Assembly: GCA_002708905.1 (NCBI GenBank)
Contig: PAPM01000035.1
Location: 248,001-312,000 of the forward strand
DNA: 64,000 nt
Direction: 5' to 3'
Source: Pseudomonadales bacterium
GTDB taxonomy: Bacteria; Pseudomonadota; Gammaproteobacteria; Pseudomonadales; Ketobacteraceae
Shown here: piece after piece, positions 578-54,341 of the stretch
Layout: each line of letters starts with the position of its first letter
Numbering within the stretch: the stretch's first letter is position 1
Made by a program: the position numbers and the translations under genes
The notes under the pieces: model-generated
What the model was told of the DNA's origin: nothing
The model's database searches: none
The model's input: the letters and a program-made list of their open reading frames with translations, nothing else

Positions 578-1477
578 TCAGGCGACGCTCAAAAACGATT
601 CCCCCGTCATTTTTTCTGAAACATCCCACAAACGCCGGGCAATGGTTTTATCGTTGGATCGTGGCGTGGAATAGGCCAGATCCGGTTTGCCCTGCATTTC
701 CAGAAAGCCATTTGGACCGATATACTCGCCACCGCTCAGATCCGGTTGTGTGGCGGCACACAGTGTCGGAAGAGCACCTTTTTCCTGAGACTGGGAAAAC
801 AGTGAGTTAAGGAGGCGGTTCACCGGCATGTACTGTTGCAGGTTAGTGTTGGAATACCCGGGGTGTACCGCAACCGCAATGACCCTGGAGCCTCGTGCTT
901 GCAAGCGACGCTGTAATTCCTTGGCAAACATCAGGTTGGCCAGTTTACTTTGGCCATAGGCCTGCCAGCGGGAATAGCGGTTTTCCCAATTGAGATCCTT
1001 GAAACGGATATGGCCGAGTCGGTGGGCAACACTGCTTACCACTACAACCCGCCCGGCTTCGGCTTTCTCCAATAAAGGCAGCAGGCGAGCGGTGAGCGCG
1101 AAGTGTCCCAGGTGGTTGGTGCCAAACTGGCTCTCGAAGCCGTCTTTTGTTTTGCTGTAAGGCGGCGCCATCACACCCGCGTTATTCACCAGCACATCGA
1201 TATGATCGAACTGCTCTGTAACGGCCGCACTGAATGCCTTTACGGAATCCAGGCTCGATAGATCCAGGCTCATCAGGGTCAATTGGGCTCTGGGCGATTC
1301 CTGTAAGATTCGATTAATGGCGGCTTGGCCTTTCTGCTGATTTCGGCAAGCGAGGATAAGTCGTGCGCCCTTGGCGGCAAATACCCTGGCGGCTTCAAAG
1401 CCGATGCCGCTGTTGGCGCCGGTAATCAGGATAGTTTTATGGTTCAGGTTGGGGATCGAATCAATGGACCAGTGCAT
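578..1477 (-). CDS. Short-chain dehydrogenase/reductase (retinol-dehydrogenase-like)
   Basis: A 299-residue NAD(P)-dependent oxidoreductase of the SDR family. The Rossmann glycine motif TGANSGIGFEAAR lies near residue 20, NNAGVMAPP near 97, and the catalytic YGQSKLAN (YxxxK) near 178. Length and motifs match the classical SDRs annotated as retinol dehydrogenase or protochlorophyllide-reductase-like, which act on lipophilic alcohols and ketones. The substrate here is unknown. The start ATG has a strong AAGGAGG ribosome-binding site 5 bases upstream. It diverges from a TetR regulator, with two palindromic sites between them, so repression by that regulator is likely. Confidence 0.88.
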   Translation of the reverse strand: MHWSIDSIPNLNHKTILITGANSGIGFEAARVFAAKGARLILACRNQQKGQAAINRILQESPRAQLTLMSLDLSSLDSVKAFSAAVTEQFDHIDVLVNNAGVMAPPYSKTKDGFESQFGTNHLGHFALTARLLPLLEKAEAGRVVVVSSVAHRLGHIRFKDLNWENRYSRWQAYGQSKLANLMFAKELQRRLQARGSRVIAVAVHPGYSNTNLQQYMPVNRLLNSLFSQSQEKGALPTLCAATQPDLSGGEYIGPNGFLEMQGKPDLAYSTPRSNDKTIARRLWDVSEKMTGESFLSVA

Positions 1478-1543
1478 GGCATCCTCCTTGGATCAGCGGG
1501 CTGTGGTCTTGGTATCGGTTTACGGTTTACACTCTAAATAAGT

Positions 1544-1579
1544 GACCAGTGGTCTCAAAAATAAAAGACCAACGGTCTT
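1544..1579. promoter_or_regulatory. Two TetR-type operator candidates between SDR and TetR genes
   Basis: Two similar palindromes lie in the 165-bp divergent intergenic region: GACCAGTGGTC at 1544-1554 and AAGACC-AAC-GGTCTT at 1565-1579. They share the pattern GACCAnnGGTC and are centred about 23 bp apart, close to two helical turns. Paired palindromes in a divergent TetR/target arrangement are typical of autoregulated TetR systems. Binding is inferred. Confidence 0.6.
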
Positions 1580-1642
1580 GTGTCAAACAGAAAGGGGTAA
1601 GGCAATGATTTTTAACGTTGTGGTCGTGATAGAATTGCGGCA

Positions 1643-2302
1643 ATGAAGTGTGTATCTGATTTCAAACGGGCTCGTCAGCCTGAACAAATTGAGCAGCGCA
1701 GGCGTGATATCCTCAATGCGGCGGCGACCTTGATGGCTGAAAAGGGCTTTGATCAGGTGAGCCTGAATGCCATCGCGCGCAGCGCCGGGGTCGCCAAATC
1801 CAACGTTTATCGTTATTTCGAAAGCAGGGAAGAAATATTTCTGACCTTATTGCGGCAGGATTGGGATGAGTGGTTGGTCCAGCTTGAGCGAGGGGTGGTT
1901 GGTCTGGAGGGAAGCGATGATATAGGCCGCTTTTCTGCGTTGGTGGCACGAACCATAGCCGCTTCGCCGCGCATGTGCGAGCTGGTTAGTGTGCTGGCTT
2001 CGGTGCTGGAGCAGAACCTGTCAGAGCAGGCCCTCATTACCTTTAAAACTGAATCCATGGCATTGGGGGGGCGCATCATGAATACGGTGCAGCGGGCACT
2101 GCCCGGCTTGCCGTCCGGAAACCTCATGCAATTGGGGCAAACGTTATTCGCGCTGATTGCCGGCCTCTGGCCCTTGGGGAATCCGCCTCCAGCGGTGCAG
2201 CGGGTGATGTCCAGACCGGAGTTGGCCCCGTTCCAGATTGAATTCGAAAGTTCGTTGGAACTGGCGTTGAACTTGATGCTGAAAGGGGCCTCTAACCCCT
2301 GA
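1643..2302 (+). CDS. TetR-family transcriptional regulator
   Basis: A 219-residue regulator. The N-terminal helix-turn-helix is clear: RRRDILNAAATLMAEKGF followed by AIARSAGVAKSNVYRYFES at about residues 50-68, the usual TetR recognition helix region. The C-terminal ligand domain (about 75-219) is rich in leucine and alanine and gives no hint of the ligand. It is transcribed away from the SDR gene across the paired palindromes at 1544-1579, so it probably represses that gene and itself. It is followed after 45 bp by the Lol genes, which are unlikely to be its targets. Confidence 0.88.
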   Translation: MKCVSDFKRARQPEQIEQRRRDILNAAATLMAEKGFDQVSLNAIARSAGVAKSNVYRYFESREEIFLTLLRQDWDEWLVQLERGVVGLEGSDDIGRFSALVARTIAASPRMCELVSVLASVLEQNLSEQALITFKTESMALGGRIMNTVQRALPGLPSGNLMQLGQTLFALIAGLWPLGNPPPAVQRVMSRPELAPFQIEFESSLELALNLMLKGASNP

Positions 2303-2347
2303 GCTTGTCGTAGCTTTACTATCAACCCTGTGGTTTAATGGCGCCCC

Positions 2348-3583
2348 ATGTTTAGACCGGTTTCCCTGTTTGTTGGATTACGATATACCCGTGCCAAGCG
2401 GCGTAATCACTTTATCTCCTTTATTTCACTTACCTCCATCCTGGGATTAACTCTGGGGGTGACGGTATTGATCGTTGTTTTGTCTGTGATGAACGGCTTC
2501 GACCGGGAATTGCAGCGCCGAATTCTGGGGATGGTGCCCCAGGCCAGTATTGTCGGTTATCAGCCGTTTGATAATTGGCAAGGCATGGTTGAGATGGCCG
2601 AACAGGATGAGCAGGTCCTTGGCGCAGCGCCCTTCATTCAACTGCAGGGTCTGCTCAGCAATAAGGGTGCGGTCGACAGTGCTTTCATCAGCGGCATTCA
2701 TCCGGATTACGAAACCCGGGTGTCCATCTTACCCAATCACCTCAAGTCCGGTTCCTTACAGGAACTTCAGCCCGGAACATTCAATGTCATTCTGGGTTCC
2801 GCTTTGGCGCGTAAACTGGGACTGGTGATCGGCGACAAGGTGACCATGGTATTGCCGGAAGCCGCCCTGACCCCTGCCGGTGTCATTCCCCGTTTCAAGC
2901 GTTTCACCCTGGTGGGTACGTTCGAAGTGGGGGCCGAGTTAGATGGTATGGTGGGGTTTATCAACCTGGAAGATGCTGCCCGTCTGGCGCGTATCAAGGG
3001 CAAGGTGGAAGGCGTACGTCTGCAGGTGGATAACCTGTTCAAGGCGGGGCAGGTGGCTTGGGACCTGGTGGCAAAACAGGAAGGCCAGTTCTACGCCAGC
3101 GATTGGACCCGCACCCATGGCACTCTGTTCCAGGCGATCAAAATGGAGAAAACCATGATGGCCTTGCTGCTGTTGCTGATTGTGGCGGTGGCGGCATTCA
3201 ATATCGTATCCAGCCTGGTGATGGTAGTGACGGATAAGAAATCCGATATCGCCATTCTGCGTACCCTGGGCGCCTCGCCCAATACCATCATGGGTATTTT
3301 TATGGTTCAGGGTAGTTTTATCGGAGTCATCGGTACCTTGGCCGGTACTGCGCTGGGGGTTTTTCTGGCCCTGAACATCAGCGACTTTGCGCTCTGGTTG
3401 GAACAGGTACTGCACAAGAAATTGTTCGCCCAGTACTTTGTCAATTATCTGCCTTCCGAGCTGCGTTGGGAAAACGTATTGTTCGTGAGTGGAATGGGTT
3501 TTCTCATGAGCTTTTTGGCAACGTTGTATCCAGCGCGCAAGGCGTCCAAAGTACAACCGGCGGAGGCATTGCGCTATGAGTAA
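2348..3583 (+). CDS. lolC: Lipoprotein-releasing ABC transporter permease (LolC/LolE family)
   Basis: A 411-residue inner-membrane permease that with LolD extracts mature outer-membrane lipoproteins from the inner membrane and hands them to LolA. The LolC/E signature region [19 protein letters not shown] leads into the first membrane helix. A large periplasmic domain (about 50-265) and three more C-terminal helices follow, ending in [17 protein letters not shown], the usual FtsX-fold tail. The stop overlaps the start of lolD by 8 bp. Only one permease is present: in the Pseudomonas-type cluster a second one (lolE) follows lolD, but here the next gene is DUF2062 on the other strand. The protein may therefore be a LolF-type permease acting as a homodimer; this is inference. 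Confidence 0.9.
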
Positions 3584-4280
3584 AGCCATCCTCGAATGTC
3601 GTCAGTTGTGCAAGAGCTTTGATGAGGGTCCGGTTGAAGTCCAGGTGTTGAAGCAGGTGGATTTTACCCTGGAAGAAGGCGAGTTTGTCGCTATCATCGG
3701 CAACTCAGGCTCCGGCAAAACCACACTATTGCACCTGTTGAGCGGGCTGGATGTGCCGTCCCGGGGACAGGTTCTGATCGGCGGTAAGGACTTCAGTGCG
3801 CTTAACGACAAACAGCGTGGCATCGTGCGCAACCAGCACATCGGCTTCGTTTATCAGTTTCATCATCTGCTGCCTGAATTTACCGCGTTGGAAAATGTTT
3901 CCATGCCGCTCATGCTGCGCAAGGATTCCATTGCCGACATTAAACGCCAGGCGACGGAAATGTTGGAGAAGGTTGGGCTTGGGCATCGCATCGGCCATAA
4001 ACCGGCGGAGCTTTCCGGCGGCGAGCGGCAGCGGGTTGCTATAGCGCGGGCCCTTGTCACCCGGCCTTCCTGTGTGATGGCGGATGAACCCACCGGTAAT
4101 CTGGACGTGCACACTGCTCGTGAGATCCAGGCCCTAATGCACGAACTCAATCGAAGTTTGAAGACATCCTTTCTTATCGTTACCCATGATTTGGGCCTAG
4201 CGAGTCAGGTGGACCGCGTGGTTAAAATGGAGGATGGGCACCTGATGGCAGCCGACAAGGAAGGCTTGGCCTCACTCTGA
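3576..4280 (+). CDS. lolD: Lipoprotein-releasing ABC transporter ATPase LolD
   Basis: A 234-residue ATP-binding subunit. Walker [17 protein letters not shown] is near residue 42, the ABC signature [15 protein letters not shown] near 147, and Walker [13 protein letters not shown] just after, with an H-loop in [10 protein letters not shown]. Length and motifs match LolD/MacB-type ATPases. It overlaps the upstream permease by 8 bp, which points to translational coupling and a shared complex that powers lipoprotein release from the inner membrane. Confidence 0.95.
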
Positions 4281-4333
4281 ACCAGCTTGGAGGTTTCTTT
4301 ATTTACCCCAAGACTGTCTATGTTGTTTGACTT

Positions 4334-4347
4334 TTGGATGCATCCAA
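4334..4347. repeat. 14-bp perfect palindrome between convergent genes
   Basis: TTGGATG directly followed by its reverse complement CATCCAA lies between lolD and the convergent DUF2062 gene. There is no loop and no flanking T-run, so it does not look like an intrinsic terminator. It may be a protein-binding site or chance. Confidence 0.35.
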
Positions 4348-4352
4348 TCCGC

Positions 4353-4916
4353 TTATGAGTGCTTCTTGAGCCGCCGTTCCCGGCGGTGCTGCCAGGAGCG
4401 GTATATGTGCATGCGCCACAGTAACCGGATTGCGACAAAACTCAGGGTGGCTGATACCACACCGACGATGGTGCAACCAAAAAACAGTGGCCAAATCGCT
4501 TTCCAGCCCAGTTCCGCCAACTGTTTCAGGAAGCCATCAAAATCAGACAGGATGATATTGAAATCCACCCTGATGGGTTGACCCAGCGTGTTTACCGGCA
4601 CACCTACAATCCAGGCGCCTACTTCGTAGCAGAAGTAGTACAGGGGGATGTAGGTGAAGGGGTTGCTGACCCAGGTGGAGGCCACGGAGATAGGCAAATT
4701 GCCGTGAATGAAGAAACAGAGAAAGATGGCGACGAAAATCTGGATGGGCAGGGGAATAAAGGCACACAGGACGCCGGCGAAAATCCCTGCCGACACAGAG
4801 CGCCGGTTCAGGTGCCACAGATTGGGATCTTTGATTCTCGGCCCAAGTTTCGAAATCCAACGATTCTCGATAATGGTATGGGGCGCTGGAATGTATTTTT
4901 TGAATATATTTTTCAA
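4353..4916 (-). CDS. DUF2062 membrane protein
   Basis: A 187-residue inner-membrane protein of the DUF2062 family. The family pattern is visible: RRSVSAGIFAGVLCAFIPLP near residue 40, then a short loop and WVSNPFTYIPLYYFCYEVG near 84. Three or four hydrophobic helices are present, and the C-terminus is strongly basic (RSWQHRRERRLKKHS), consistent with a cytoplasmic tail. No enzymatic function is established for the family. It lies at the same place in the lol-comEC neighbourhood in Pseudomonas, but here it is divergent from comEC and convergent with lolD. Confidence 0.85.
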   Translation of the reverse strand: MKNIFKKYIPAPHTIIENRWISKLGPRIKDPNLWHLNRRSVSAGIFAGVLCAFIPLPIQIFVAIFLCFFIHGNLPISVASTWVSNPFTYIPLYYFCYEVGAWIVGVPVNTLGQPIRVDFNIILSDFDGFLKQLAELGWKAIWPLFFGCTIVGVVSATLSFVAIRLLWRMHIYRSWQHRRERRLKKHS

Positions 4917-4982
4917 GGCCGACGGTTACCTGGTTCCTGCCACAGCGCGCTTATTATGCCGCCAATAGAGGCATAACACTAG

Positions 4983-7214
4983 ATGTGGATGTGGGTCTCT
5001 GGCGTTGCCATTGGAATAATCTTCTCGGTCCTGGTGTTGCCTGCACTTACGGAGCCATTTCCTACAACTTTGCTGGTGTTCGCGGCACTTTTCCCCGTTG
5101 TAACTGGGTTGTCATGGTCTCGCCTGAAGCCCGGACCTTACCGGGTCACCCTGGTGGTCATGCTTGCCTCGCTGGTAGGGTTGGCCATCGGTGGATGGGT
5201 TAAATATAGATTATCGCCGTGGGAGCTGGAAACCGGTTCCACTTACTACTTAAGTGGGGAAGTCACAGGCATTCCCCGGGCAAACCGGTTCAGTACAGGA
5301 TATCGCTTGAAAGCAGACTGTCTGGGGCGGACGCAGACGGATTGCAGTGTTTTCCATAACCGGATTCCGGTGCTCTGGCCGGTGCTGGTGGAGGTGAGTT
5401 CTTCCCAGCGAAAGCCGGTGTTGATTCCGGGCCAGCGTGTGCAGATCCAGGTTCAGAACAGAGTGTCTCGAGTTAATACCAATCCCGGCGCGTTTAATGT
5501 TGAGCGCTGGTTGCTCTCAAGTCATATCGTGGCACGGCTGAAGCTGAAACGGGGTAGTACGATCCAGCAATCCGGGAAAGCGTGGTTTACCATGGATAGA
5601 GTCCGCGCCCGTCTCAATGCTTACTTCAGCCAATCCCGGGATTCGGGATCAGCTGACAATCTCTCCGCTTATCCGGTCATTCTGGCGCTGTTAAGCGGGG
5701 ACCGCAGTTTGATGACGGATCAGCATTGGGCGTTGTTCAATCGAACCGGAACCACCCATCTGGTGGCGATCTCCGGATTGCATGTAGGGCTGGTGGCGAC
5801 CATGGTGACTTTGCTTGCTATGCCGTTATTTCGCCGCTGGCGTTGGTTTACCAATCGTTACCCGGCGAGCCATGGTGCGTTGGTACTGGCATGGCTGGCC
5901 AGCCTCGTGTATTGCGGTTTGGCGGGGTTCGCCATTCCCACTCAGCGGGCATTGATTATGCTCAGCGTGTATGTGGCTTTGAAACTGACAGGGCGAGCTC
6001 AGCACCTCTGGTTTGGTCTGTTGGTGGCACTTTGTATCGTCCTGGTGTGGGACCCGGTGGCCTGTTTGAGTTTAGGGTTCTGGCTGTCGTTTTCCGCGGT
6101 ATATCTGATCCTCTGGTTGATTGGCGGTAACGTCTCCGCCCGTTCGAAAATCTCTCAATGGACGACGGTGCAGCTTGGCCTTTTTATTGGGCTGGCGCCG
6201 GCTTTACTCTGGTCCGTGCATTCCGTTTCCCTGGTCTCTGCATTTACCAACGCGGTGGCGATTCCCCTGATTGGTTTTGTGGTGGTGCCCCTGGCTCTGG
6301 TTTGGTGTGCGCTTTGGGCCATATTGGGGGAACAGGTCGCTTCCCTGTTGGCTGGGATCGTATACCTCACCGACAGCTTGCTCTGGTTGCTACACCAGTT
6401 CAGCAGTTGGCGTTATAGCACCTGGAGCGTGGGTGAGCGTAGCATGGCTAGCTTGCTGCTTGCCATGGTGGGGGTGTTGTGGCTCGTGAGTGCCGGTCTG
6501 CCCGGGCGGGCCTGGGGCATGGTTCTGCTGTTGCCTATTTTGCTGCCCCAGGTGCAAGGTAAGGGGCTTTATATAATGGGGGCTGGCTCCGGCCGCATTC
6601 TGTTCCAGTCCGAACACGCGGTCTGGTCGCTGTCGAAATCCCATTGGCCCGAGCCCGTTGCCCACTGGCAGGCGCAGCTGTTGACCCACTGGGGAGTGAT
6701 GATTCCCCCTGAAAGCCTGACATTACATGCAACCAAGCAGCTATGGCTCGCCCCGGAAAAGGTGTTGTCCGAGTTCAATTTGCACAAGAATTTTTTGGGT
6801 GCCAGGCATTTGGGTACTGCAAGTTATAGCCATTTGTGCGACAGACCGCATTGGCAAACAGCCGCTGTGAAATTTACTCGTTATGAGGTCGAGGGTAGGC
6901 AGGAGCGCTGTGCCCTGGCGATGGAGTGGGGGCAATCCCGCTGGCTCTACTGGCCGCTGGATACTATCAGGGACCAGGCTGCTGTACTGAGTGATATGGC
7001 TACCGAGCGTTTTGACGTGCTGTTACTGGATGTGGGGAAAGGCAAACCTGTCGAACCTGCTTTACTGTCGCTATTGGTCCCTGATGGCAAAGTCATATCG
7101 ATAAAGCCCCTGTCAGAAGCTATGTCCAGACGGGTCGCCGACCTTGCAATTCCGGTTCATGTGATTGAGGAGGAGGGTTATTATTACCAGCCTTTTACGG
7201 ATGGAGCGGATTGA
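4983..7214 (+). CDS. comEC: ComEC/Rec2-family DNA uptake channel with degenerate C-terminal domain
   Basis: A 743-residue polytopic membrane protein. N-terminal helices are followed by an OB-like DUF4131 domain (about 60-200). The Competence domain (about 240-510) includes LLSGDRSLMTDQHW, TGTTHLVAISGLHVGL and the channel helices around FAIPTQRALIMLSVYV. ComEC carries single-stranded DNA across the inner membrane during transformation. Most homologues end in a metallo-beta-lactamase-like domain with an HxxxDH-type metal site. Here the last 230 residues keep only a weak DVGKGK relic of the DVGQG entry strand and I see no HxxxDH motif, so nuclease activity is probably lost. The start ATG lies 66 bp from the divergent DUF2062 gene. 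Confidence 0.88.
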   Translation: MWMWVSGVAIGIIFSVLVLPALTEPFPTTLLVFAALFPVVTGLSWSRLKPGPYRVTLVVMLASLVGLAIGGWVKYRLSPWELETGSTYYLSGEVTGIPRANRFSTGYRLKADCLGRTQTDCSVFHNRIPVLWPVLVEVSSSQRKPVLIPGQRVQIQVQNRVSRVNTNPGAFNVERWLLSSHIVARLKLKRGSTIQQSGKAWFTMDRVRARLNAYFSQSRDSGSADNLSAYPVILALLSGDRSLMTDQHWALFNRTGTTHLVAISGLHVGLVATMVTLLAMPLFRRWRWFTNRYPASHGALVLAWLASLVYCGLAGFAIPTQRALIMLSVYVALKLTGRAQHLWFGLLVALCIVLVWDPVACLSLGFWLSFSAVYLILWLIGGNVSARSKISQWTTVQLGLFIGLAPALLWSVHSVSLVSAFTNAVAIPLIGFVVVPLALVWCALWAILGEQVASLLAGIVYLTDSLLWLLHQFSSWRYSTWSVGERSMASLLLAMVGVLWLVSAGLPGRAWGMVLLLPILLPQVQGKGLYIMGAGSGRILFQSEHAVWSLSKSHWPEPVAHWQAQLLTHWGVMIPPESLTLHATKQLWLAPEKVLSEFNLHKNFLGARHLGTASYSHLCDRPHWQTAAVKFTRYEVEGRQERCALAMEWGQSRWLYWPLDTIRDQAAVLSDMATERFDVLLLDVGKGKPVEPALLSLLVPDGKVISIKPLSEAMSRRVADLAIPVHVIEEEGYYYQPFTDGAD

Positions 7215-7339
7215 TTCGGTATCCTGGAGCGGGTTGTCCAAATTTGGATCAAAATGAGATCCAGGCAACGCTCCGGTTACGAAAAGCTGCTACAGTGTGC
7301 TAGAGTAAAAATCAGTTAAAAAATAGGAGATTACAGCGC

Positions 7340-7981
7340 GTGCGAGTGCTTGATGTGATTATGTCCGGGGGCTTGGTAATGTACCCCATAATTTTGTGCT
7401 CCATTTTGGCATTGGCCATCATTGTTGAGCGCTTGTGGGCACTAAGGGTGAACAAAATCAGCCCCCGTAATCTGATTGCCCAGGTGTGGGGGTGGGTTAA
7501 GAATGGCAAGCTGGATGGCAAGAAAGTCAAAGAACTGCGGGATTCCTCTCCGCTGGGCAGAGTATTGGCAACCGGGTTGATCAATGCCAAGCATGGCCGC
7601 GAAATCATGAAGGAAGCCATCGTGGATACTGCCACCCATGAAATCCACGAGATGGGGCGCTTCCTTAATCTCCTGGGTTCCATCGCCGCCGTTGCCCCTT
7701 TGCTGGGACTGCTGGGCACGGTAATCGGCATGATCAAGGTGTTTAATGCGATCGTGTTGGAAGGTGCTGGCAACGCGGCAATACTTGCGGGCGGTATTTC
7801 TGAAGCACTGTACACTACCGCCGCTGGCCTGGTAGTGGCGATCCCGGCACTCTTTTTCCACCGCTTTTTCTCCCGGCGTATTGATGAAATTGCGGTGTTG
7901 ATGGAGCAGGACGCGGTGAAGCTGGTGGATGTTATCCACGGCGACCGTGAAGCGGAAACCGCTGAGGGTGACAAAAAGTGA
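7340..7981 (+). CDS. exbB: ExbB/TolQ-family proton-channel protein
   Basis: A 213-residue inner-membrane protein. Residues 10-30 form the first helix (PIILCSILALAIIVERLWAL). The long cytoplasmic segment is followed by two helices with the family pattern SIAAVAPLLGLLGTVIGMI and AGGISEALYTTAAGLVVAIP. With ExbD it couples the proton gradient to outer-membrane energisation, usually through a TonB-type protein. No tonB is present here. The start is a GTG with TAGGAG 10 bases upstream. The stop overlaps the exbD start by 4 bp. Same position as the ExbB-like gene upstream of lpxK in Pseudomonas. Confidence 0.9.
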   Translation: MRVLDVIMSGGLVMYPIILCSILALAIIVERLWALRVNKISPRNLIAQVWGWVKNGKLDGKKVKELRDSSPLGRVLATGLINAKHGREIMKEAIVDTATHEIHEMGRFLNLLGSIAAVAPLLGLLGTVIGMIKVFNAIVLEGAGNAAILAGGISEALYTTAAGLVVAIPALFFHRFFSRRIDEIAVLMEQDAVKLVDVIHGDREAETAEGDKK

Positions 7982-8394
7982 AGTTCCAACGCCAACCGGT
8001 GGAAGAGGTCAATGTTAACCTGACACCCCTTATTGACGTGGTATTTCTGCTGCTGATCTTCTTTATGGTCTCCACCACCTTTACCCGGGAGCGGGAGCTG
8101 ACCGTGGAACTGCCGAAAGCAGTCGGTGAATCGGCGACGGAAGCCCCCAAATATATCGAGATCCAGATCAGTGCAGACGGCGAGTACGCCATTAACGAAC
8201 AACGCTTGGTGAACCGGGAGCGGGAAACCCTGGAGCGAGCGCTAAAAAAGGAATCCAATGGTAACGTGGACATCCCGTTGATCATTACCGCCGATGCCCA
8301 TGCTGCTCACCAGTCGGTAATGACGGCCATGGATGTGTCGGGGGCTCTGGGCTTCACCAAATTAAGGCTTACCGCCCAGCAGCCGGAGCCATAA
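7978..8394 (+). CDS. exbD: ExbD/TolR-family biopolymer transport protein
   Basis: A 138-residue protein with a short cytoplasmic N-terminus, one membrane helix (about 15-38) carrying the conserved proton-binding aspartate (D20 in NLTPLIDVVFLLLIFFM), and a periplasmic domain. It forms the stator with ExbB. The GTG start is embedded in the exbB stop (GTGA), showing tight translational coupling. The downstream lpxK begins 14 bp later, so the three genes are probably one operon. Confidence 0.92.
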   Translation: MKFQRQPVEEVNVNLTPLIDVVFLLLIFFMVSTTFTRERELTVELPKAVGESATEAPKYIEIQISADGEYAINEQRLVNRERETLERALKKESNGNVDIPLIITADAHAAHQSVMTAMDVSGALGFTKLRLTAQQPEP

Positions 8395-8408
8395 CCGCTC
8401 CGGTTGTC

Positions 8409-9479
8409 ATGACGGTGTTGCATCGCTTCTTCAACAGGCTTTGGTATCAGGGGCATCCCCTCGCCTGGGTATTCTGGCCGCTTTCAGCTTTGTTTTCCTG
8501 GCTTGCTGAGCGACGCCGCAATCAATACCTGTTAGGAAAAAAACCAGCCTATCATCCCGAAATCCCGGTCATTGTGGTGGGAAACATCAGTATTGGAGGA
8601 ACCGGCAAAACCCCGGTCAGTATCTGGCTGATCGAGGCGCTGCAACAGCGGGGCTTTCGCCCCGGGCTGGTCAGTCGAGGTTATGGCGGCAAGGCTCCGT
8701 ATTATCCCTATTCAGTATCCGAATCTGATAGCGCTTCAGTGACGGGGGATGAGCCGCTGATGATCCGTTTGCGTACGGGCGTGCCTGTGGTGGTGGACCC
8801 GGATCGTGCGGGGGCCGTGCGCCACCTGATTGAGAATGAGCAGGTGGACGTGGTGGTCAGCGACGATGGTCTGCAACACTATCGTTTGTCTCGCACGGTT
8901 GAACTGGTGGTGGTGGATGGCGTACGCGGGTTTGGCAGCAACAAGTTGTTGCCTATGGGGCCGTTGCGGGAATCCATTGACAGACTGCGGTCTGTGGATG
9001 CCATTCTGGTCAACGGTGATCCCGGCCATGTTTCGTTGGGTCAATTAAGCAGCCTCCATAGCAAAACCTTTTCCTTTTCCTTGCAGCCGGGGGCCTGGGT
9101 GCCTCTCAATTCCGATTCAGAAGCACCATTGGAGCAGCTCGGGAGTGGTAATGCATCCACCGTCCATGGCGTCGCAGGTATCGGTAATCCGCAGCGTTTT
9201 TTCGATACCCTGAAGCAGCTGGGCATCGAGCATCAGCCCCACAGTTTTCCGGATCATTTTGACTATACCGAACTGGATCTGGAACCCTTTGAAGCGGGGT
9301 TGGTGCTGACCACGGAAAAAGACGCCGTCAAACTGCGTCGCTTTGGCCGCTTACGGGGTGCCTATTTACCGATGGATGCGCAATTTGATCCAACTGACCC
9401 ACAGCTTCGGTCCAGCCTGATCGATGTTATAATGGCGCGTCTTGAAGCGTTCAAACAACATCGCCGCCACCTGTATTGA
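8409..9479 (+). CDS. lpxK: Tetraacyldisaccharide 4'-kinase
   Basis: A 356-residue kinase that phosphorylates the 4' position of the lipid A disaccharide at the inner membrane. An N-terminal hydrophobic helix (about 15-35) is followed by the P-loop GNISIGGTGKTPVSIWL near residue 60. SRGYGGK and SDDGLQHYRL are the other LpxK signatures. Length agrees with the family. It lies 14 bp after exbD and 17 bp before kdsB. The small Trm112/YcaR gene often found between lpxK and kdsB is absent. Confidence 0.95.
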   Translation: MTVLHRFFNRLWYQGHPLAWVFWPLSALFSWLAERRRNQYLLGKKPAYHPEIPVIVVGNISIGGTGKTPVSIWLIEALQQRGFRPGLVSRGYGGKAPYYPYSVSESDSASVTGDEPLMIRLRTGVPVVVDPDRAGAVRHLIENEQVDVVVSDDGLQHYRLSRTVELVVVDGVRGFGSNKLLPMGPLRESIDRLRSVDAILVNGDPGHVSLGQLSSLHSKTFSFSLQPGAWVPLNSDSEAPLEQLGSGNASTVHGVAGIGNPQRFFDTLKQLGIEHQPHSFPDHFDYTELDLEPFEAGLVLTTEKDAVKLRRFGRLRGAYLPMDAQFDPTDPQLRSSLIDVIMARLEAFKQHRRHLY

Positions 9480-9496
9480 GATAACTAGAGATTGCC

Positions 9497-10261
9497 ATGA
9501 CAGATTATCGCGTCATTATTCCGGCCCGTTATGCTTCCACCCGCCTGCCCGGGAAACCGCTGCAGGATATTGCCGGTAAACCCATGATCCAGCGGGTTTA
9601 CGAGCAGGCTTGCCGCAGCCAGGCGAAGCAAGTGATTATTGCGACTGACGATACGCGAATTGAAGCGGCAGCAGCTGAATTCGGTGCCACAGTGGTGATG
9701 ACCCGGGCGGATCATGAGTCCGGCACAGATCGCCTGCAGGAAGTGGTCGCCAAGTTGGGCCTGGGGAGCGATGATATTGTGGTGAATGCGCAGGGGGATG
9801 AGCCGCTTATTCCGCCTGAGCTTATCGATCAGGTTGCCAATAATCTAGCTAGGTCCACGGCGGGCATATCAACTTTGAGTGAACCGGTTGATAGCATCGA
9901 AACAGTGTTTGATCCGAATGCCGTGAAAGTGGTGGCAGATGCCAATGGCTACGCACTGTACTTCAGCCGCGCCCCCATTCCTTTTGGTCGTGACCATTAT
10001 GATGTAATTAATCGCAGCGGACATCTGCCTGAGTTGATGGCGGTACAGCGGCATATTGGTATATACGGATATAGGGTCAGTTTGCTGCATGATTTTGTGC
10101 GCTGGGGCCCCTGCGCGTTGGAAAAAACCGAGTGTTTGGAACAGTTGCGAGCCATGTGGCACGGCGTGAAGATTCACGTAGAGCAAGCGGCTGTTACACC
10201 TCCCGCCGGTGTGGATACGCCGGCGGATTTAGAGCGGGTGCGGGCCCTGTTTTCCCGCTAA
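9497..10261 (+). CDS. kdsB: 3-deoxy-manno-octulosonate cytidylyltransferase
   Basis: A 254-residue cytoplasmic enzyme that makes CMP-Kdo from CTP and Kdo for the lipopolysaccharide inner core. The nucleotide-binding N-terminus [15 protein letters not shown], the segment [12 protein letters not shown] and the motif [11 protein letters not shown] are all typical. Length matches E. coli KdsB closely. It follows lpxK by 17 bp and is followed by the phosphatase gene, so Kdo activation and lipid A synthesis appear to be co-expressed. Confidence 0.96.
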
Positions 10262-10290
10262 GGGGTAGCGGATTGGGGTAGAGGGGAACC

Positions 10291-10758
10291 ATGAAGAAAG
10301 TATTGTTTGTATGCCTTGGCAACATTTGCCGTTCGCCAACAGCCGAGGCTGTATTCCGGGCCAAAGTTAAGCAGTCCGGGCTGGAACAGGTGATTGTTCA
10401 TGATTCTTGCGGCACTGCTGGCTATCATGTTGGTGAGGCTCCCGATCGTCGAGCCACCCAAGCCGCACAGAAACGTGGTTATCCCATGTCGGATTTAAGG
10501 GGGCGCCAGGTTTGCGATGAGGACTTTGAAGAGTTCGACTACATCCTGGCGATGGACCGTTCCAATTACTCTGATCTTAAGCGCCGTGCGCCGGAACATC
10601 ACCATCCGAAGATCCAATTGTTTCTCAAGTACAGCTCCACCGATGAGCGGGAAGTCCCCGACCCCTATTATGGTGGGGCCGAGGGTTTTGATTATGTGCT
10701 TGATCTGGTGGAAGACGCCTGCGATGGTTTGCTGCAACGTTTGCAGGATGAGTTGTGA
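10291..10758 (+). CDS. Low-molecular-weight protein-tyrosine phosphatase
   Basis: A 155-residue cytoplasmic phosphatase. The active-site loop CLGNICRSPTAEAVF (C(X)5R) lies at the N-terminus and the general-acid aspartate in VPDPYYGG near residue 120. These are the two catalytic elements of the LMW-PTP family. The Pseudomonas gene at this locus is called ptpA. Its substrate is not indicated here; no capsule kinase is present. The stop overlaps the murB GTG start by 4 bp. Confidence 0.93.
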   Translation: MKKVLFVCLGNICRSPTAEAVFRAKVKQSGLEQVIVHDSCGTAGYHVGEAPDRRATQAAQKRGYPMSDLRGRQVCDEDFEEFDYILAMDRSNYSDLKRRAPEHHHPKIQLFLKYSSTDEREVPDPYYGGAEGFDYVLDLVEDACDGLLQRLQDEL

Positions 10759-11768
10759 TCCCCCTTCAGTTTAATGTTTCGCTGAAACCCTACAACACTC
10801 TGGCCGTGGATGTTGAGGCCAAAATATTCTGTGCGGTCAGTACGGTAGATGAGTTGCAGCAGGTGTTGCAAAGCCATCGAAATGAATCCCTGTTGATATT
10901 GGGTGGAGGCAGCAATCTGGTATTAACCTCCAATTTTGACGGGCTCGTGGTGCACAATCGTATCTGTGGTGTTGATGTGCTGGAGGAAACAGAAGCCAGT
11001 GTCCTGCTGCAGGTGGGAGCAGGGGAAAACTGGGACGACCTGGTAGTCGCCTGTGTGGGCCGGGGTTGGTTTGGCCTTGAGAACCTGAGCTGGATCCCTG
11101 GTTCGGTGGGAGCGGCGCCGATCCAGAATATTGGTGCTTATGGTGTCGAGCTGAAGGATGTACTGGTACAGGTGGAGACTGTGCAGTTAAGTGATTTATC
11201 TCGGCATGTGTTTACTCGCGAGCAGTGTCGGTTTGATTACCGTGATAGTGTTTTCAAACGGGAACAGAAGGGGCGTCAGGTCATCGTTGCTGTCCGGCTT
11301 AGGTTATCGAAAGCACCTAGGCTGAAATTGGATTACGGTGAGATCCGGAAAAACGCCGAACACTGGGGTTATGATTGTACCAATATGACTCCGGTGGATG
11401 TACGCGAAATTATTATACGAACCCGTTCAGAAAAGTTGCCGGACCCCGCACATTTGCCTAACGTTGGGAGTTTCTTTAAGAATCCTGTAGTGTCTCGGGC
11501 TCAGTTTGAAAAAATCCGATCCACAGATCCTGATGTTGTGGCGTATCAGCAAGAGGATGGCGTGAAACTGGCGGCTGGCTGGCTGGTCGACCAAATGGGA
11601 TTCAAGGGAAAAAGGCTGGGGCAGGCGAAAGTACATGATCGCCAGGCTCTGGTTCTGGTCAATGAAGGCTCTGATAGCAAAGATGTGATGGTACTGGCCC
11701 ATCAAATTCAGAAGTCAGTACGAGATCGCTGGGGGGTTGAGTTGGAAATTGAACCCAGTATTGTATAA
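10755..11768 (+). CDS. murB: UDP-N-acetylenolpyruvoylglucosamine reductase
   Basis: A 337-residue FAD enzyme that reduces UDP-GlcNAc-enolpyruvate to UDP-MurNAc in peptidoglycan synthesis. The FAD site ILGGGSNLVLTS lies near residue 50. The substrate region IPGSVGAAPIQNIGAYGVE is near 115, and VGSFFKNP near 235 supplies the catalytic serine. Length indicates the type I enzyme of gammaproteobacteria. It starts with GTG inside the phosphatase stop (GTGA). A bidirectional terminator separates it from rne. Confidence 0.96.
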   Translation: MIPLQFNVSLKPYNTLAVDVEAKIFCAVSTVDELQQVLQSHRNESLLILGGGSNLVLTSNFDGLVVHNRICGVDVLEETEASVLLQVGAGENWDDLVVACVGRGWFGLENLSWIPGSVGAAPIQNIGAYGVELKDVLVQVETVQLSDLSRHVFTREQCRFDYRDSVFKREQKGRQVIVAVRLRLSKAPRLKLDYGEIRKNAEHWGYDCTNMTPVDVREIIIRTRSEKLPDPAHLPNVGSFFKNPVVSRAQFEKIRSTDPDVVAYQQEDGVKLAAGWLVDQMGFKGKRLGQAKVHDRQALVLVNEGSDSKDVMVLAHQIQKSVRDRWGVELEIEPSIV

Positions 11769-50054: not shown

Positions 50055-50080
50055 GGCACCTTTAAGGTGCCTTTTGTGTT
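50055..50080 (+). terminator. Intrinsic terminator after FadL-like gene
   Basis: GGCACC pairs with GGTGCC around TTTAA and is followed by TTTTGTGTTTTT. Confidence 0.7.
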
Positions 50081-50230: not shown

Positions 50231-50247
50231 TTGGCACAGCTCTTGTA
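50231..50247 (+). promoter_or_regulatory. Sigma-54-like (-24/-12) promoter
   Basis: TTGGCACAGCTCTTGTA matches the pattern TTGGCAC-N5-TTGC(A/T) except for one base in the -12 element (GT in place of GC). The -24 half is perfect. It lies 36 bp before the start codon of the redox operon. Confidence 0.55.
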
Positions 50248-50282: not shown

Positions 50283-52301
50283 ATGGCCGAACCCCAATTG
50301 AAAACGCCCTGGGCTGAAGAATCTGTATCAGATCCCATTGCTTCTGTTGGTTTGGATCACCGTAAGGTATTGGTGATCATCGGCAGCGGTCCGGTGGGCG
50401 TGCAATTTGCGCAGGAGTTGATTAACCGGGGTTATCCGGGAATCATCAAGCTGTTTGGCGACGAGCCCTGGCGGCCCTACAACCGCATTCAATTGTCTTC
50501 TTTGGTGGCGGGAGAAGTCCGCTACAACGATATTCTGTTTCCGGAAATCCGGGATGACCGTGACCATTTTCATTTTCTCAATCGTCGTGTGGTGCAAATC
50601 GATCACGACAAGCGTGCGCTGCTGGATGAAAAGGGCGTCACCCATCGATTCGACCATCTTGTATTTGCCACCGGCTCCAATCCCTGGATCCCGAATGTGC
50701 GAGGTATCGAGCTTCCCGGAGTCTATGTTTTTCGTGACCTGAATGATGCCCAGCTGTTGATGGCGCGCAGTGTGCGTACCCGGCGTACGGTGGTGGTGGG
50801 GGGTGGCTTATTGGGTGTGGAAGCCGCCCGCGCCATGCAACGCAATAACACCCAGGTGGTCTTGGTACATCAAAGCAACCGCTTGATGAATCGGCAGTTG
50901 GACGTGGAAGGCGGCGCCATACTAAAACGTACCCTGGAAGGGTATGGCATAGAAGTGTTCCTTAATTCCGGCGTAAGAAACCTGGTTGGTGAGCGCAATG
51001 TGAATGCGGTGGAGTTGCGTAACGGCCAAACCATCGAATGCGACACGGTAATCTTTGCCACCGGCATACAGCCAAATGTGGAATTAGCCCGCAGTTCCGG
51101 CGTGAAAGTAGCGCGGGGCATTCAGGTTAATGACGATTTGAGCACCAATCTGGAAAACGTATTCGCGGTGGGGGAGTGTGCAGAGCATCGCGGTGAAATC
51201 TATGGGTTGTTGGCACCCGGGTTGGAGCAGGCGGCGATCCTGGCGGATCGTTTGTGTGAGGGTAACGCAACCTATCAGGGCTCCATTGCAGCAACGCAAC
51301 TAAAAATTCTGGATCTGCCGATCTTTACTATTGGTTGGATCAGCGATGAATACGAAAATCAGATTGATCAGACGCTCACGTTCCACAACGAGAACGGCGA
51401 TTACCGCAAACTCTTTCTGAAACGCAATCGCCTGAAAGGCTTTGTTGCCGTTGGGCGTTGTGACGAGCGTAGCCGGTTGCAGCAGGCGGTGGTGAATGAA
51501 CAGCGCATTTATCCCTGGCAAATAGCCCGCTTCAAGAAGGAAGGTCGCATCTGGCCCCAGGAAGACACTGAACACGTTAGGGAATGGCCTGCATCTGCCA
51601 TAGTCTGCAATTGTCGGGCTGTGGACAAGGGAACCCTGGTGGAAGCGCAGCTGCAAGGGTGTCAAACCGTTGAGGCACTGGCTCAGTGCACTGGTGCTTC
51701 AACGGTGTGTGGTTCCTGCAAACCATTGTTGGCGGATCTGGCTGGCGCTCCATTCGAACCGGAGCCCGTGGTTGCATCCGGCAAGCCGCTGATCGCCATC
51801 GTCGCAATAAGCCTGCTGTTGGTGGTGGCGCATTTCCTGTTGCCGGCACCGGTTTATTCTGAAAGCTTTCAATCCGCCACCTGGCTTGAGTCCTTCTGGA
51901 CCGATGCCCTGTTAAAACAGATCACCGGTTTTACCATGTTGGGGATCAGTGTGGCGGGTATTTTTATTTCTTTGCGTAAGCGCGTTAAAAAATTCACATT
52001 GGGCGGCTTCCCCTGGTGGCGTTTTGTTCATACCGTGCTGGGTGTTTTGGCATTGATCATTCTCTATTTGCACACCGGCTTCTCCCTCGGCGATAACATT
52101 AATCAGTATCTGATGCTGGATTTCCTGTTATTGGCGTTGGTGGGGGCCTTCGCCGGTTTGGTGATTGGTGGGGAACGCTATACGAAAATGGGTTATACCG
52201 GAAAGCAAATGCGACAGTGGTTCACCCATGCTCACATTATCTTGTTTTGGCCCTTGCCCGTGTTGTTGGGCTTTCATGTGTTGAGCGTGTATTTCTTCTG
52301 A
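50283..52301 (+). CDS. NirB-like FAD/[2Fe-2S] oxidoreductase fused to a dihaem membrane domain
   Basis: A 672-residue fusion. Residues 30-420 are a pyridine nucleotide-disulfide oxidoreductase module as in the N-terminal half of NirB: FAD site VIIGSGPVGVQFAQEL, NAD(P) site VVVGGGLLGVEAARAM, and FAD site VFAVGECAEHRG. A BFD-type [2Fe-2S] domain follows, with C442, C444, C476 and C479. Five hydrophobic helices make up residues 505-672. Two of them carry His pairs exactly 14 residues apart (H583/H597 and H651/H665), the spacing that holds two stacked b haems in ferric reductase and cytochrome b families. The siroheme part of NirB is absent. It should move electrons from cytosolic NAD(P)H to the periplasmic side. 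First gene of a three-gene operon. Confidence 0.85.
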   Translation: MAEPQLKTPWAEESVSDPIASVGLDHRKVLVIIGSGPVGVQFAQELINRGYPGIIKLFGDEPWRPYNRIQLSSLVAGEVRYNDILFPEIRDDRDHFHFLNRRVVQIDHDKRALLDEKGVTHRFDHLVFATGSNPWIPNVRGIELPGVYVFRDLNDAQLLMARSVRTRRTVVVGGGLLGVEAARAMQRNNTQVVLVHQSNRLMNRQLDVEGGAILKRTLEGYGIEVFLNSGVRNLVGERNVNAVELRNGQTIECDTVIFATGIQPNVELARSSGVKVARGIQVNDDLSTNLENVFAVGECAEHRGEIYGLLAPGLEQAAILADRLCEGNATYQGSIAATQLKILDLPIFTIGWISDEYENQIDQTLTFHNENGDYRKLFLKRNRLKGFVAVGRCDERSRLQQAVVNEQRIYPWQIARFKKEGRIWPQEDTEHVREWPASAIVCNCRAVDKGTLVEAQLQGCQTVEALAQCTGASTVCGSCKPLLADLAGAPFEPEPVVASGKPLIAIVAISLLLVVAHFLLPAPVYSESFQSATWLESFWTDALLKQITGFTMLGISVAGIFISLRKRVKKFTLGGFPWWRFVHTVLGVLALIILYLHTGFSLGDNINQYLMLDFLLLALVGAFAGLVIGGERYTKMGYTGKQMRQWFTHAHIILFWPLPVLLGFHVLSVYFF

Positions 52302-52349
52302 TGGTTTGTTGTTGATGGCTGGATGTAGAAGGTTAACTGAGGGGTCGCT

Positions 52350-53756
52350 GTGAAAAAAGGTGTTAAGGGGGGAGTGAAAAAGGTAACCCTGTTTTATTCC
52401 CTGCTGACAATAGTGGTTTTGGCGATGGCAGGCATTTGGGGTTATGAACTATTTGTGCAACCGGAAAAAGAGACCTTCCTGATAGGGAAGACCTCAGACG
52501 GGCATCATCAGATAGAACTGGCCTGTGGAACCTGTCACCAATCTCCTTTTGGTGGAGGAGAAGTTTTGCAGGATGCCTGTATGGGGTGTCATGCCAAAGA
52601 ATTAAAGGCAGCCCATGATTCTCATCCGAAGTCGAAGTTTACCGATCCGCGAAATGCAGATCGGTTGGAGCAGATAGATGCACGTTATTGCATCGCCTGT
52701 CACCGGGAGCATCAACCGGACATTACCCGGGAGATGGGCGTGACCCTGGCCACGGATTTTTGTGTGGCCTGTCACCTGGATATTGCAGAAGACAGACCGT
52801 CCCATGAAGGCATGGAATTCGATACCTGCGCTTCTGCCGGTTGCCACAATTTTCACGACAACCGGGCTCTGTACGAAGACTTTTTGCTGCAGCATGTGGA
52901 TGAGCCGGATTTTGCGGCGCAACCGGTGATTGCCGCTCTTAAAGATTATGTGAATCAACCAGTGGTGAAGAAAGTGGCTCCGCAACCCGATTACCCGGAG
53001 CAATCCTTCCAGGTAGGTGAGATCGAACAGGAGTGGTTGCACAGCGCTCATGCCACCGAGGAAAGTAATTGTTCGGCCTGTCATGGTGAAGGCGAAGCCT
53101 TTACTGCTCAACCGGACCCGCTGGTATGTGTGGATTGTCATCAGCCACAGGCGCAGGGTTTTCTGATTGGCAAGCATGGCATGCGGTTGGCGATCAAGCG
53201 TGATACGGTGGAATCGTTCCCCCTGAATGCATCCGTTAAATCGCTGATGAAACCGGAGCAGCGTCTGTTGACACCAATGACTCCGGAGCAGGGCCGACTG
53301 CCTTTCAAGGCCGAGTCACATGGTGCAGAACTCACCTGTAACAGTTGTCATGGCGCTCACGAGTATACCTTAGGCGTTAGTGCCTCAGTGGATGCCTGCA
53401 TGGGCTGTCACGATGATGAGCACACCAATCAATACAAGGCGTCGCCCCACTATGCGCTGGTGCTGAGAGAAGCCGCTGGAGAATTGCCGGCCGGAAGCGG
53501 GGTGACCTGCGCGACCTGCCATATGCCGAAACTGGAGAGTGAGGCGGAGCCCGGCGTGTTCCGGACCTTGCATAACCAGAACGATAATTTGAGACCGAAT
53601 GAGAAAATGATTCGAACCGTATGTCTTGATTGCCACGGATTGCAATTTGCGTTGGATGCCTTGGCGGATCCGGCGTTGATTGACAATAACTTCCAGGGGC
53701 AGTCCAAGGTTTCCATTGATTCCATAAAAATGGCAATACAGAGAGTGAAGGAGTGA
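52350..53756 (+). CDS. Membrane-anchored multihaem cytochrome c
   Basis: A 468-residue cytochrome. An uncleaved-looking N-terminal helix (about 12-34) would anchor it to the periplasmic face of the inner membrane. Ten CxxCH sites are visible (CGTCH, CMGCH, CIACH, CVACH, CSACH, CVDCH, CNSCH, CMGCH, CATCH, CLDCH) and an eleventh, CASAGCH, has the CX4CH spacing known from some cytochromes c3. It therefore may bind up to 11 haems. Many free histidines could be distal ligands. The GTG start follows GAGGGG. It lies 48 bp after the fusion oxidoreductase and 3 bp before the DUF3365 gene, and probably takes electrons from the dihaem domain. The final acceptor is unknown. Confidence 0.9.
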   Translation: MKKGVKGGVKKVTLFYSLLTIVVLAMAGIWGYELFVQPEKETFLIGKTSDGHHQIELACGTCHQSPFGGGEVLQDACMGCHAKELKAAHDSHPKSKFTDPRNADRLEQIDARYCIACHREHQPDITREMGVTLATDFCVACHLDIAEDRPSHEGMEFDTCASAGCHNFHDNRALYEDFLLQHVDEPDFAAQPVIAALKDYVNQPVVKKVAPQPDYPEQSFQVGEIEQEWLHSAHATEESNCSACHGEGEAFTAQPDPLVCVDCHQPQAQGFLIGKHGMRLAIKRDTVESFPLNASVKSLMKPEQRLLTPMTPEQGRLPFKAESHGAELTCNSCHGAHEYTLGVSASVDACMGCHDDEHTNQYKASPHYALVLREAAGELPAGSGVTCATCHMPKLESEAEPGVFRTLHNQNDNLRPNEKMIRTVCLDCHGLQFALDALADPALIDNNFQGQSKVSIDSIKMAIQRVKE

Positions 53757-53759
53757 TCC

Positions 53760-54341
53760 ATGAAAGCAACTAAACTTTGGGGTTCAGTACTGTTGGCCGG
53801 TTCTGTAGCATTGACTGCGGGCTGTGGCGGTGAAGAGAAGGCAGCCGGGGTTGATCCTCAGGTTATGGCGGATGCCCTGTTCGCCGTAATGGCGTCTGAC
53901 CGGGCCAACTATACTAAATTGATCATCAAGCGACTGGGCGGCGAAGCCGGTTTCATCAAGCCTGATGAGCATTGGGAGGATCTGGACAATGGTGCGCCTC
54001 TGCCGGCCCAGATGTTCCGCTTCGGCGCAGAAGCGGTAGCGGAGCGCACGGATGCGTTTACCTATTCTTTGCAGTCCCTTTGGCCTATCAACAAACAGAA
54101 TGCGCCGCGAACTGAGGTAGAGAAAACCGGGCTTCAGTACATCGTCGATAATCCAGGCAAGAACTACTACGGTGAGGAAGAATTGGGTGGGGTTAAGTAT
54201 TACACCGCTGTCTATCCGGATGTTGCCGTGGCCACGCCCTGTGTGGATTGCCACAACAAGCACAAAGATTCGCCCCGAACCGACTTCAAGATCGGTGACA
54301 CCATGGGCGGTGTTGTCGTGCGAATCCCGGTCAAGGGCTAA
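53760..54341 (+). CDS. DUF3365 (Tll0287-like) monohaem lipoprotein
   Basis: A 193-residue predicted lipoprotein. The signal MKATKLWGSVLLAGSVALTA ends in the lipobox LTAGC. The mature part is a DUF3365 domain, known as a haem-binding PAS-like module in Tll0287. GLQYIVDNPGKNYYGEEE and the haem site TPCVDCHNKH near the C-terminus are visible. With no Asp at +2 it should go to the outer membrane, so it could accept electrons from the multihaem cytochrome across the periplasm, or act as a redox sensor. Third gene of the operon, 3 bp after the cytochrome. Confidence 0.87.
   Translation: MKATKLWGSVLLAGSVALTAGCGGEEKAAGVDPQVMADALFAVMASDRANYTKLIIKRLGGEAGFIKPDEHWEDLDNGAPLPAQMFRFGAEAVAERTDAFTYSLQSLWPINKQNAPRTEVEKTGLQYIVDNPGKNYYGEEELGGVKYYTAVYPDVAVATPCVDCHNKHKDSPRTDFKIGDTMGGVVVRIPVKG

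Follow-up and report, generated by a model that had tools for sequence, protein, structure and literature searches.

Transmembrane oxidoreductases of the NOX/FRE type (NADPH oxidase and yeast ferric reductase) pass electrons from NAD(P)H through a flavin to two haems b across a membrane; their membrane part has two helices carrying two His pairs with a spacing of about 14 residues, and their FAD/NAD(P) domain is of the FNR type. In Bradyrhizobium, the narK-bjgb-flp-nasC genes provide a haemoglobin and an FAD oxidoreductase for defence against nitric oxide (NO) within nitrate assimilation, as excerpts of the published account describe it (PMC4724949). Here we describe a three-gene locus from a Pseudomonadales bacterium of the Ketobacteraceae (GenBank assembly GCA_002708905.1, contig PAPM01000035.1, positions 248,001 to 312,000 of the forward strand; this whole stretch of 64,000 nucleotides is referred to as the window). 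Its genes, A, B, and C, encode a flavoprotein fused to a membrane domain, a multihaem cytochrome, and a haem-Cache lipoprotein. The trio is one real, widespread unit whose arrangement is not due to chance. We tentatively read it as a nitrogen-controlled conduit from NAD(P)H to the periplasm that most likely reduces a reactive nitrogen oxide, NO first, at the haem of C. The features of the locus lie at these window positions:

50232..50247, forward strand: candidate sigma-54-type promoter-like site, TGGCACAGCTCTTGTA, 35 bp upstream of the gene A start codon, with 10 of the 12 consensus positions matched
50283..52301, forward strand: gene A, NAD(P)H/FAD/[2Fe-2S] oxidoreductase fused to a dihaem-type membrane domain, 672 amino acids (aa)
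50370..51191, forward strand: Pyr_redox_2 FAD/NAD(P)-binding module, A residues 30-303 (Pfam, 1.3e-54)
51291..51497, forward strand: Rubredoxin_C domain, A residues 337-405 (Pfam)
51600..51740, forward strand: BFD-type [2Fe-2S] domain (Fer2_BFD), A residues 440-486, with C442, C444, C476, and C479 (Pfam)
51780..52295, forward strand: predicted membrane helices, A residues 500-671 (five by hydropathy; helices in the structural model)
52350..53756, forward strand: gene B, c-type cytochrome with 11 haem sites and a hydrophobic N-terminus, 468 aa, GTG start
52827..52847, forward strand: CX4CH haem site of B, residues 160-166, with C160, C165, and H166 in 78/78 sequences
53760..54341, forward strand: gene C, DUF3365/Tll0287-like haem-Cache lipoprotein, 193 aa (PF11845)
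54240..54254, forward strand: CXXCH of C, residues 161-165, kept in 77/77 sequences

To follow the trio across genomes, we used two sets of loci that share genomes, one holding the best 80 of 118 loci and the other 36 fetched regions. The order A-B-C on one strand was found in 77 of the 80 loci, the exceptions being two loci that end (L112 and L154) and one that is gapped (L151). The same order was present in 33 of the 36 regions, plus the window; of the other three, L057 is interrupted by a scaffold gap, L077 stops at a contig end, and L078 is a distant variant that lacks B and C. The open reading frames of the window agree with the three-gene layout given in the initial annotation, with all genes on one strand and gaps of 48 bp between A and B and 3 bp between B and C, and the joint retention of the genes on which that annotation had staked its reading is what the relatives display. 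Pairwise protein distances are correlated between the three genes (r of 0.80 for A-B, 0.69 for A-C, and 0.70 for B-C over 67 rows), and the highest value among 1000 permutations was 0.26.

The trio occurs in Pseudomonadota, Nitrospirota, Verrucomicrobiota, Planctomycetota, and Lentisphaerota. With the window genome counted, 11 of 57 relatives had a match to the membrane domain of A, a weak one in one case; among 369 genomes sampled from the class, 48 had a match, which was strong in 26. The nearest named relative is a Ketobacter, with 91% in the membrane domain of A. A midpoint-rooted tree of A sets a Verrucomicrobiota-Planctomycetota-Lentisphaerota group apart from Pseudomonadota and nests the two Nitrospirota rows within Pseudomonadota. 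In a literature search of open-licence papers, we recognised no description of the trio.

Several loci depart from the common form. Gene A is split into two frames in L102 and L135, and gene B is split in L146. In L057, gene B is interrupted by a stretch of N; the B frame of L151 is equally short and looks like the same region, which points to a gap and not a frameshift. One genome, G234, carries a second copy of the trio (L079:8986-12344) in which an A protein of 416 aa without a recognisable FAD part is followed by B and C; this region counts among the 33 with the full order. The L078 variant (L078:7833-10424) is an 863-aa protein that has the same kind of membrane domain, no B or C nearby, and, by eye, cyclic-nucleotide-type, Rubredoxin_C/BFD-like, and FNR-like reductase domains.

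The soluble part of A is a flavoprotein of known type. Residues 27-430 have a ferredoxin-reductase fold (3fg2; VIA Z of 39.4, root mean square deviation [rmsd] of 2.1, 392 residues aligned), and the protein matches positions 1-464 of the 794-position NirB model TIGR02374 at 384.2 bits, below the cut-off of 578.35. The four Cys residues of the BFD domain are kept in all 72 full-length A proteins. The AlphaFold model of A, built with 63 sequences, has a mean predicted local distance difference test (pLDDT) score of 89.9 and contains helices at residues 500-519, 542-567, 576-598, 606-631, 637-655, and 657-671. Two His pairs, H583/H597 and H651/H665, are each spaced by 14 residues and are invariant in 35/35 membrane-domain sequences and in 72/72 full-length proteins; the first pair sits in predicted helix 576-598 and the second in predicted helices 637-655 and 657-671. 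The NirB-type FAD/NAD(P)/[2Fe-2S] fusion and its paired His residues, as proposed in the initial annotation, hold on the Pfam domains, the NirB match, and the invariant His, and the model places both pairs within predicted membrane helices. Because of the positive-inside rule (RKRVKK follows helix 2), H583 and H651 would face the cytosol and H597 and H665 the periplasm, presumably holding two haems in series.

The family of the membrane domain is less sharply defined. DUF4405 and prokaryotic cytochrome b561 belong to a common dihaem clan. At E values up to 0.5, DUF4405 matched the domain in 29 of 35 sequences (mostly weakly, best 6.8e-6), and the cytochrome b561 model Ni_hydr_CYTB matched it in 11 of 35 (mostly weakly, best 2.3e-7). 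The domain of the window scored 18.5 bits against these dihaem Pfam models, for which the cut-off is 26.7. A profile of the domain compared with the sequences of solved structures gave three ribosomal-protein matches (E of at least 0.67), which we took as chance. The structure search with the whole of A was filled by the flavoprotein part and so barely probed the membrane fold.

Gene B encodes ten CXXCH motifs and one CX4CH, consistent with the anchored cytochrome of 10 or 11 haem sites that had been noted initially and settling the number at 11. Across 78 sequences, each of the 33 haem-motif residues is retained in 76-78, as is each of 11 additional His residues (52, 92, 121, 152, 169, 234, 276, 337, 358, 367, and 408), which would provide one distal ligand per haem. 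In two Verrucomicrobiota sequences (L110 and L114), B is without one CXXCH together with H234 and H337, a hint at the pairing of haem and ligand. The N-terminus is hydrophobic in 38 aligned sequences, judged by eye, and we read it as an anchor. The DmsE/MtrA decahaem model TIGR03508 matches B in 38/38 members, at 41.1 bits for the window protein, far below the cut-off of 192.2, and parts of B resemble the eight-haem nitrite reductase and NrfA (profile E of 6.5e-10 and 1e-9). Judged by these profile matches, B is akin to multihaem cytochromes of several kinds.

Gene C encodes the monohaem DUF3365 lipoprotein recognised at the outset, with a PF11845 score of 65.3 bits against a cut-off of 24.1, a lipobox Cys at position 22, and one CXXCH. 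Its predicted model (pLDDT 89.2) has Tll0287 (PDB 5b82) as the best solved match, with a Foldseek value of 2.9e-5, a VIA Z of 13.9, and an rmsd of 3.3 over 145 aligned residues; the next match has a Z of 9.4. A profile of C found nothing among the sequences of solved structures up to an E of 1, although the fold search finds Tll0287. None of the 77 C sequences has a conserved Cys outside the CXXCH. In a low-identity alignment, the KVCR motif of a paralogue from the same genome falls on M85-F86-R87 of C, and F86 and R87 are invariant in 59/59 sequences. If the Cys of KVCR is equated with the axial ligand of Tll0287, C would be without that ligand; conserved candidates for a sixth haem ligand are M85, M182, and H168. 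In the available parts of a 2026 preprint, a haem-Cache signalling protein without the axial Cys is described as releasing NO slowly (PMC12889525). By eye, the window genome encodes two further haem-Cache proteins: one (L001:1210-2091) ends in a HAMP-like part and has a Ser/Thr-kinase-like gene as its neighbour, and the other (L002:1351-1953) is stand-alone with a KVCR motif.

We next consider the genomic context of the trio. Neighbouring genes were clustered, nine representatives were compared with Pfam and NCBIfam, and the 80 loci were rescanned with hidden Markov models (HMMs). A haemoglobin gene lies near the trio in 60 of the 80 loci (globin in 48, truncated haemoglobin in 13), and in 58 it is on the same strand no more than 1.5 kb after C. 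Nitrate-assimilation (nas) genes, counted as at least two of NrtA, NrtB, NrtCD, NasT, or NirB, are present in 29 loci, and either nas genes or a haemoglobin in 68. Individually, NrtA was found in 29 loci, NrtB in 26, NrtCD in 26, a NasT-like ANTAR regulator in 19, an Alginate_exp-type porin in 17, a 2Fe-2S/FNR reductase in 11, and a long NirB in 3. The NrtCD model alone is unspecific, since an ABC ATPase at 3576-4280 of the window matches it. In one genome (G020), a single run, assigned partly from sequence starts, contains NirB, NirD-like, NasT-like, NrtA-, NrtB-, NrtC-like, and porin-like genes, followed by A, B, C, a cytochrome c, and a reductase. The trio of the window itself is flanked upstream by a FadL-type gene and downstream by a glutamyl/glutaminyl-tRNA synthetase gene (glnS), according to Pfam.

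Similar associations were seen across whole genomes when 35 genomes with a strong match to the membrane domain of A (carriers) were compared with 45 genomes without a match. The latter were hand-picked at a completeness of at least 91%, and 4 of the 35 carriers are 72-88% complete. NrtB-like proteins (at least 140 bits) were found in 31/35 carriers and 18/45 non-carriers (Fisher p 8e-6). Single-domain globins were more frequent in carriers (22/35 versus 6/45; Fisher p 5e-6) and globins of flavohaemoglobin length rarer (2/35 versus 16/45; Fisher p 0.002), with classes assigned by frame length; frames of 592-1015 aa and weak matches fall in neither class. Within the genus of the window, a short globin is encoded away from the trio in the carriers G000 (the window genome), G002, and G005, and the carrier G001 has none; the non-carriers G003 and G004 have flavohaemoglobin-length globins.

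The region upstream of A was available for 71 of the 80 loci. Sigma-54-like sites with at least 10 of 12 consensus matches occur in the 300 bp preceding A in 29 of 70 cases, compared with 16 of 406 for other genes of the same loci; the upstream regions are related, and the p value of 2.7e-16 is accordingly nominal. L080 and L081, which nearly duplicate the window, were excluded from this comparison, as was one control region out of 407. Such sites occur in 13 of 34 loci with a nas-type gene and in 17 of 37 without one, the latter count including L080 and L081. NtrC-like sites (at least 9 of 12) were moderately enriched (37/70 versus 71/406).

These observations suggest a role in nitrogen metabolism or NO defence rather than in metal breathing, because most relatives have a haemoglobin gene next to the trio, and nitrate-uptake genes are frequent neighbours as well. 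The path from NAD(P)H to FAD, the [2Fe-2S] cluster, two haems b, the multihaem cytochrome, and finally the monohaem protein is well supported by what is known of the families of the parts, together with inference. In the mechanism that we propose, which presumes outward electron flow, occupied haems, and a complex of the three proteins, cytosolic NAD(P)H would reduce the FAD of A, and electrons would move on to its [2Fe-2S] cluster and then to a stack of two haems b spanning the inner membrane, with H583/H651 on the inner side and H597/H665 on the outer. From there they would enter the anchored 11-haem wire B and then reach C, a lipoprotein of the periplasm whose Cache fold holds a single c-haem. 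The haem of C would bind and reduce a small reactive nitrogen oxide, most likely NO, and the neighbouring haemoglobin of most relatives would handle NO in the cytoplasm. We favour NO on four grounds: the neighbouring haemoglobin, the promoters of nitrogen type, the lower frequency of flavohaemoglobins among carriers, and the absence from C of the axial Cys.

A number of points weigh against this assignment. A haemoglobin neighbour alone is no proof that NO is the substrate of C. The HMM scan of the window gave no globin, NrtA, NrtB, or NasT match, its closest kin (L080-L082) are likewise without an adjacent globin or nas gene, and 12 of the 80 loci, some of them short contigs, have neither. 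In carrier G234, which has two trio copies, neither a NirB over cut-off nor an NrtB, a globin, or a close NasA match was found; its two adjacent NIR_SIR matches point to a sulfite reductase of the dissimilatory type, with the alpha subunit over cut-off. The genome-level tests treat related genomes as independent and use comparators that are not a random sample, and the globin classes and the nominal promoter statistic carry the limits given above. Control of NO metabolism often uses FNR/DNR-like sites, and these were not enriched upstream of A, which gives no support to FNR/DNR-type control of the trio. The best NtrC-like match in the window was set aside, as it resembles the fadL terminator. 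The probable terminator is a perfect inverted repeat, GGCACCTTTAAGGTGCC, at 50055-50071 of the window, followed by T-rich sequence after fadL. At the level of C, the conserved M85, M182, and H168 mean that the haem site may be closed. The available parts of the preprint give stand-alone haem-Cache proteins redox roles and not NO roles, and the stand-alone example described there and its Cys-to-Ala variant bound NO weakly (PMC12889525).

A bolder form of the NO assignment, which we regard as doubtful, is that the trio constitutes a new kind of periplasmic NO reductase powered directly by NAD(P)H of the cytosol, spread over five phyla and under nitrogen control. It would be a bacterial analogue of NOX that arose by convergence: the NirB-type flavoprotein with its fused dihaem membrane domain would charge the 11-haem cytochrome, and this would feed the haem-Cache protein, a catalyst and not a sensor. 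A compact and strictly conserved path by which NAD(P)H delivers electrons to the periplasm in lineages of five phyla would add a new branch point to electron flow in bacteria. If the trio removes NO or nitrite arising from nitrate assimilation, it would form a second, periplasmic arm of nitrosative defence, which would explain the presence of an 11-haem cytochrome in many nitrate-assimilation loci. The trio also offers a test case for haem-Cache proteins as redox or catalytic parts rather than sensors.

Among the alternatives to the nitrogen-oxide conduit, the one that survives best, though we think it unlikely, is a short-cut NAD(P)H:cytochrome c oxidoreductase, in which A, B, and C would feed a monohaem cytochrome c and a terminal oxidase and serve as a redox valve in nitrogen limitation. 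A gene for a monohaem c551/c6-like cytochrome c is present in 47 of the 80 loci, often directly after C, and the redox roles proposed for stand-alone haem-Cache proteins fit such an arrangement. However, no such cytochrome c was found in the other 33 loci, which include the kin of the window, the haemoglobin is the commoner neighbour, and this explanation leaves the nitrate neighbourhood without a reason.

Somewhat less probable again is an assimilatory role in which nitrite, NO, or hydroxylamine would be reduced in the periplasm towards ammonium, the 11 haems of B storing the electrons that a multi-electron step requires. The likeness of parts of B to the eight-haem nitrite reductase and NrfA, the nitrogen-type promoters, and the nas neighbours are in keeping with it, but the 11 extra conserved His residues for the 11 haems of B leave no obvious unoccupied site. 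Six of the 35 carriers (G031, G183, G065, G107, G234, and G338) have no NirB over cut-off. G183 and G107 have a NasA-like protein at 53-54% identity, and such proteins (53-55%) were found in four of eight other genomes searched (G136, G364, G183, and G107). In G031 the NirB found at a contig end is partial, and G031, G183, G065, and G107 encode a NIR_SIR (sirohaem-type) protein of 551-607 aa that scores below the NCBIfam cut-offs for nitrite and sulfite reductases. G338, which is 72% complete, gave no NIR_SIR match. The window genome has both NirB and a NIR_SIR protein of the same below-cut-off type; in all, such proteins of 550-607 aa occur in five trio genomes (L172-L176). NirB is over cut-off in the remaining 29 of 35 carriers, as compared with 28 of 45 non-carriers (Fisher p 0.05), and the trio was therefore rejected as a general replacement of the assimilatory nitrite reductase; single genomes may differ.

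We consider improbable a route for extracellular electron transfer or metal reduction, in which the path runs on from the periplasm to outer-membrane haems, as the initial annotation thought possible. The match of B to the DmsE/MtrA model speaks for it, and a lipobox without Asp at +2, which C has, would permit outer-membrane sorting. In addition, and counting against the nitrogen-oxide conduit, the window genome has a separate Mtr-type cluster, so that outward electron flow may occur in the strain. In this Ketobacter-like genome, the set lies on one strand of contig C28 (C28:139000-153000, L206, at 1315-11301) and comprises two OmcA/MtrC decahaem cytochromes and a DmsE-family decahaem cytochrome, all over their cut-offs, an MtrB/PioB porin, a protein with nine CXXCH motifs, and a NapC/NirT-like tetrahaem protein (239.7 against a cut-off of 310.6). 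The cluster thus has its own NapC/NirT-like protein, and the single MtrB/PioB match of the window genome lies there, with none beside the trio. An MtrB/PioB porin was found in 5 of 35 carriers, the window genome included, and not in the other 30, and the single porin type that recurs near the trio is Alginate_exp-like. Given these absences, the haemoglobin, cytochrome c, and nas neighbours, and the sigma-54-like sites, a plausible and co-conserved path from NAD(P)H to the periplasm stands, an outer-membrane or respiratory route as the general function is not supported, and the functional frame first given to the trio was probably too respiratory. Very improbable is a periplasmic reductase for another small substrate, such as ferric iron to serve the haem, sirohaem, and Fe-S enzymes of nitrate assimilation: the ferric reductase model Ferric_reduct (PF01794) matches the membrane domain of A weakly in 6 of 35 sequences (best 4.4e-4), the window's not among them, and no iron-uptake family occurs among the nine recurring neighbour types scanned.

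The closest described systems share some features with the trio and differ in others. Like MtrA/DmsE and the Uet undecahaem complex of Tenderiales, B is a c-type cytochrome with 10 or 11 haems; unlike them, it has a hydrophobic N-terminus, one CX4CH, and no MtrB-type porin partner, the Uet complex being set apart by its description in the excerpts available (PMC10734462, PMC5371394). The Bradyrhizobium system likewise ties a haemoglobin and a flavoprotein to nitrate assimilation, but Flp is described as a typical cytoplasmic oxidoreductase, and the available excerpts mention no membrane dihaem, multihaem cytochrome, or haem-Cache protein (PMC4724949). C shares its fold and CXXCH with Tll0287 (sCache_heme, PF11845; 5b82), yet it has M85-F86 at the presumed place of the axial Cys and is tied to A and B. 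With NirB (TIGR02374), A has in common an N-terminal FAD/NAD(P)H and BFD part, and a membrane domain replaces the portion in which NirB continues past position 464 of 794. Finally, A resembles NOX/FRE in the two His pairs 14 residues apart in predicted membrane helices and in the order of flavin and dihaem. It differs in that its flavoprotein is N-terminal and of the NirB/ferredoxin-reductase type (Pyr_redox_2 and not FNR-type) with a BFD [2Fe-2S] domain, and in that the electrons of the trio would go on to a c-type cytochrome with 11 haems and to a haem-Cache lipoprotein.

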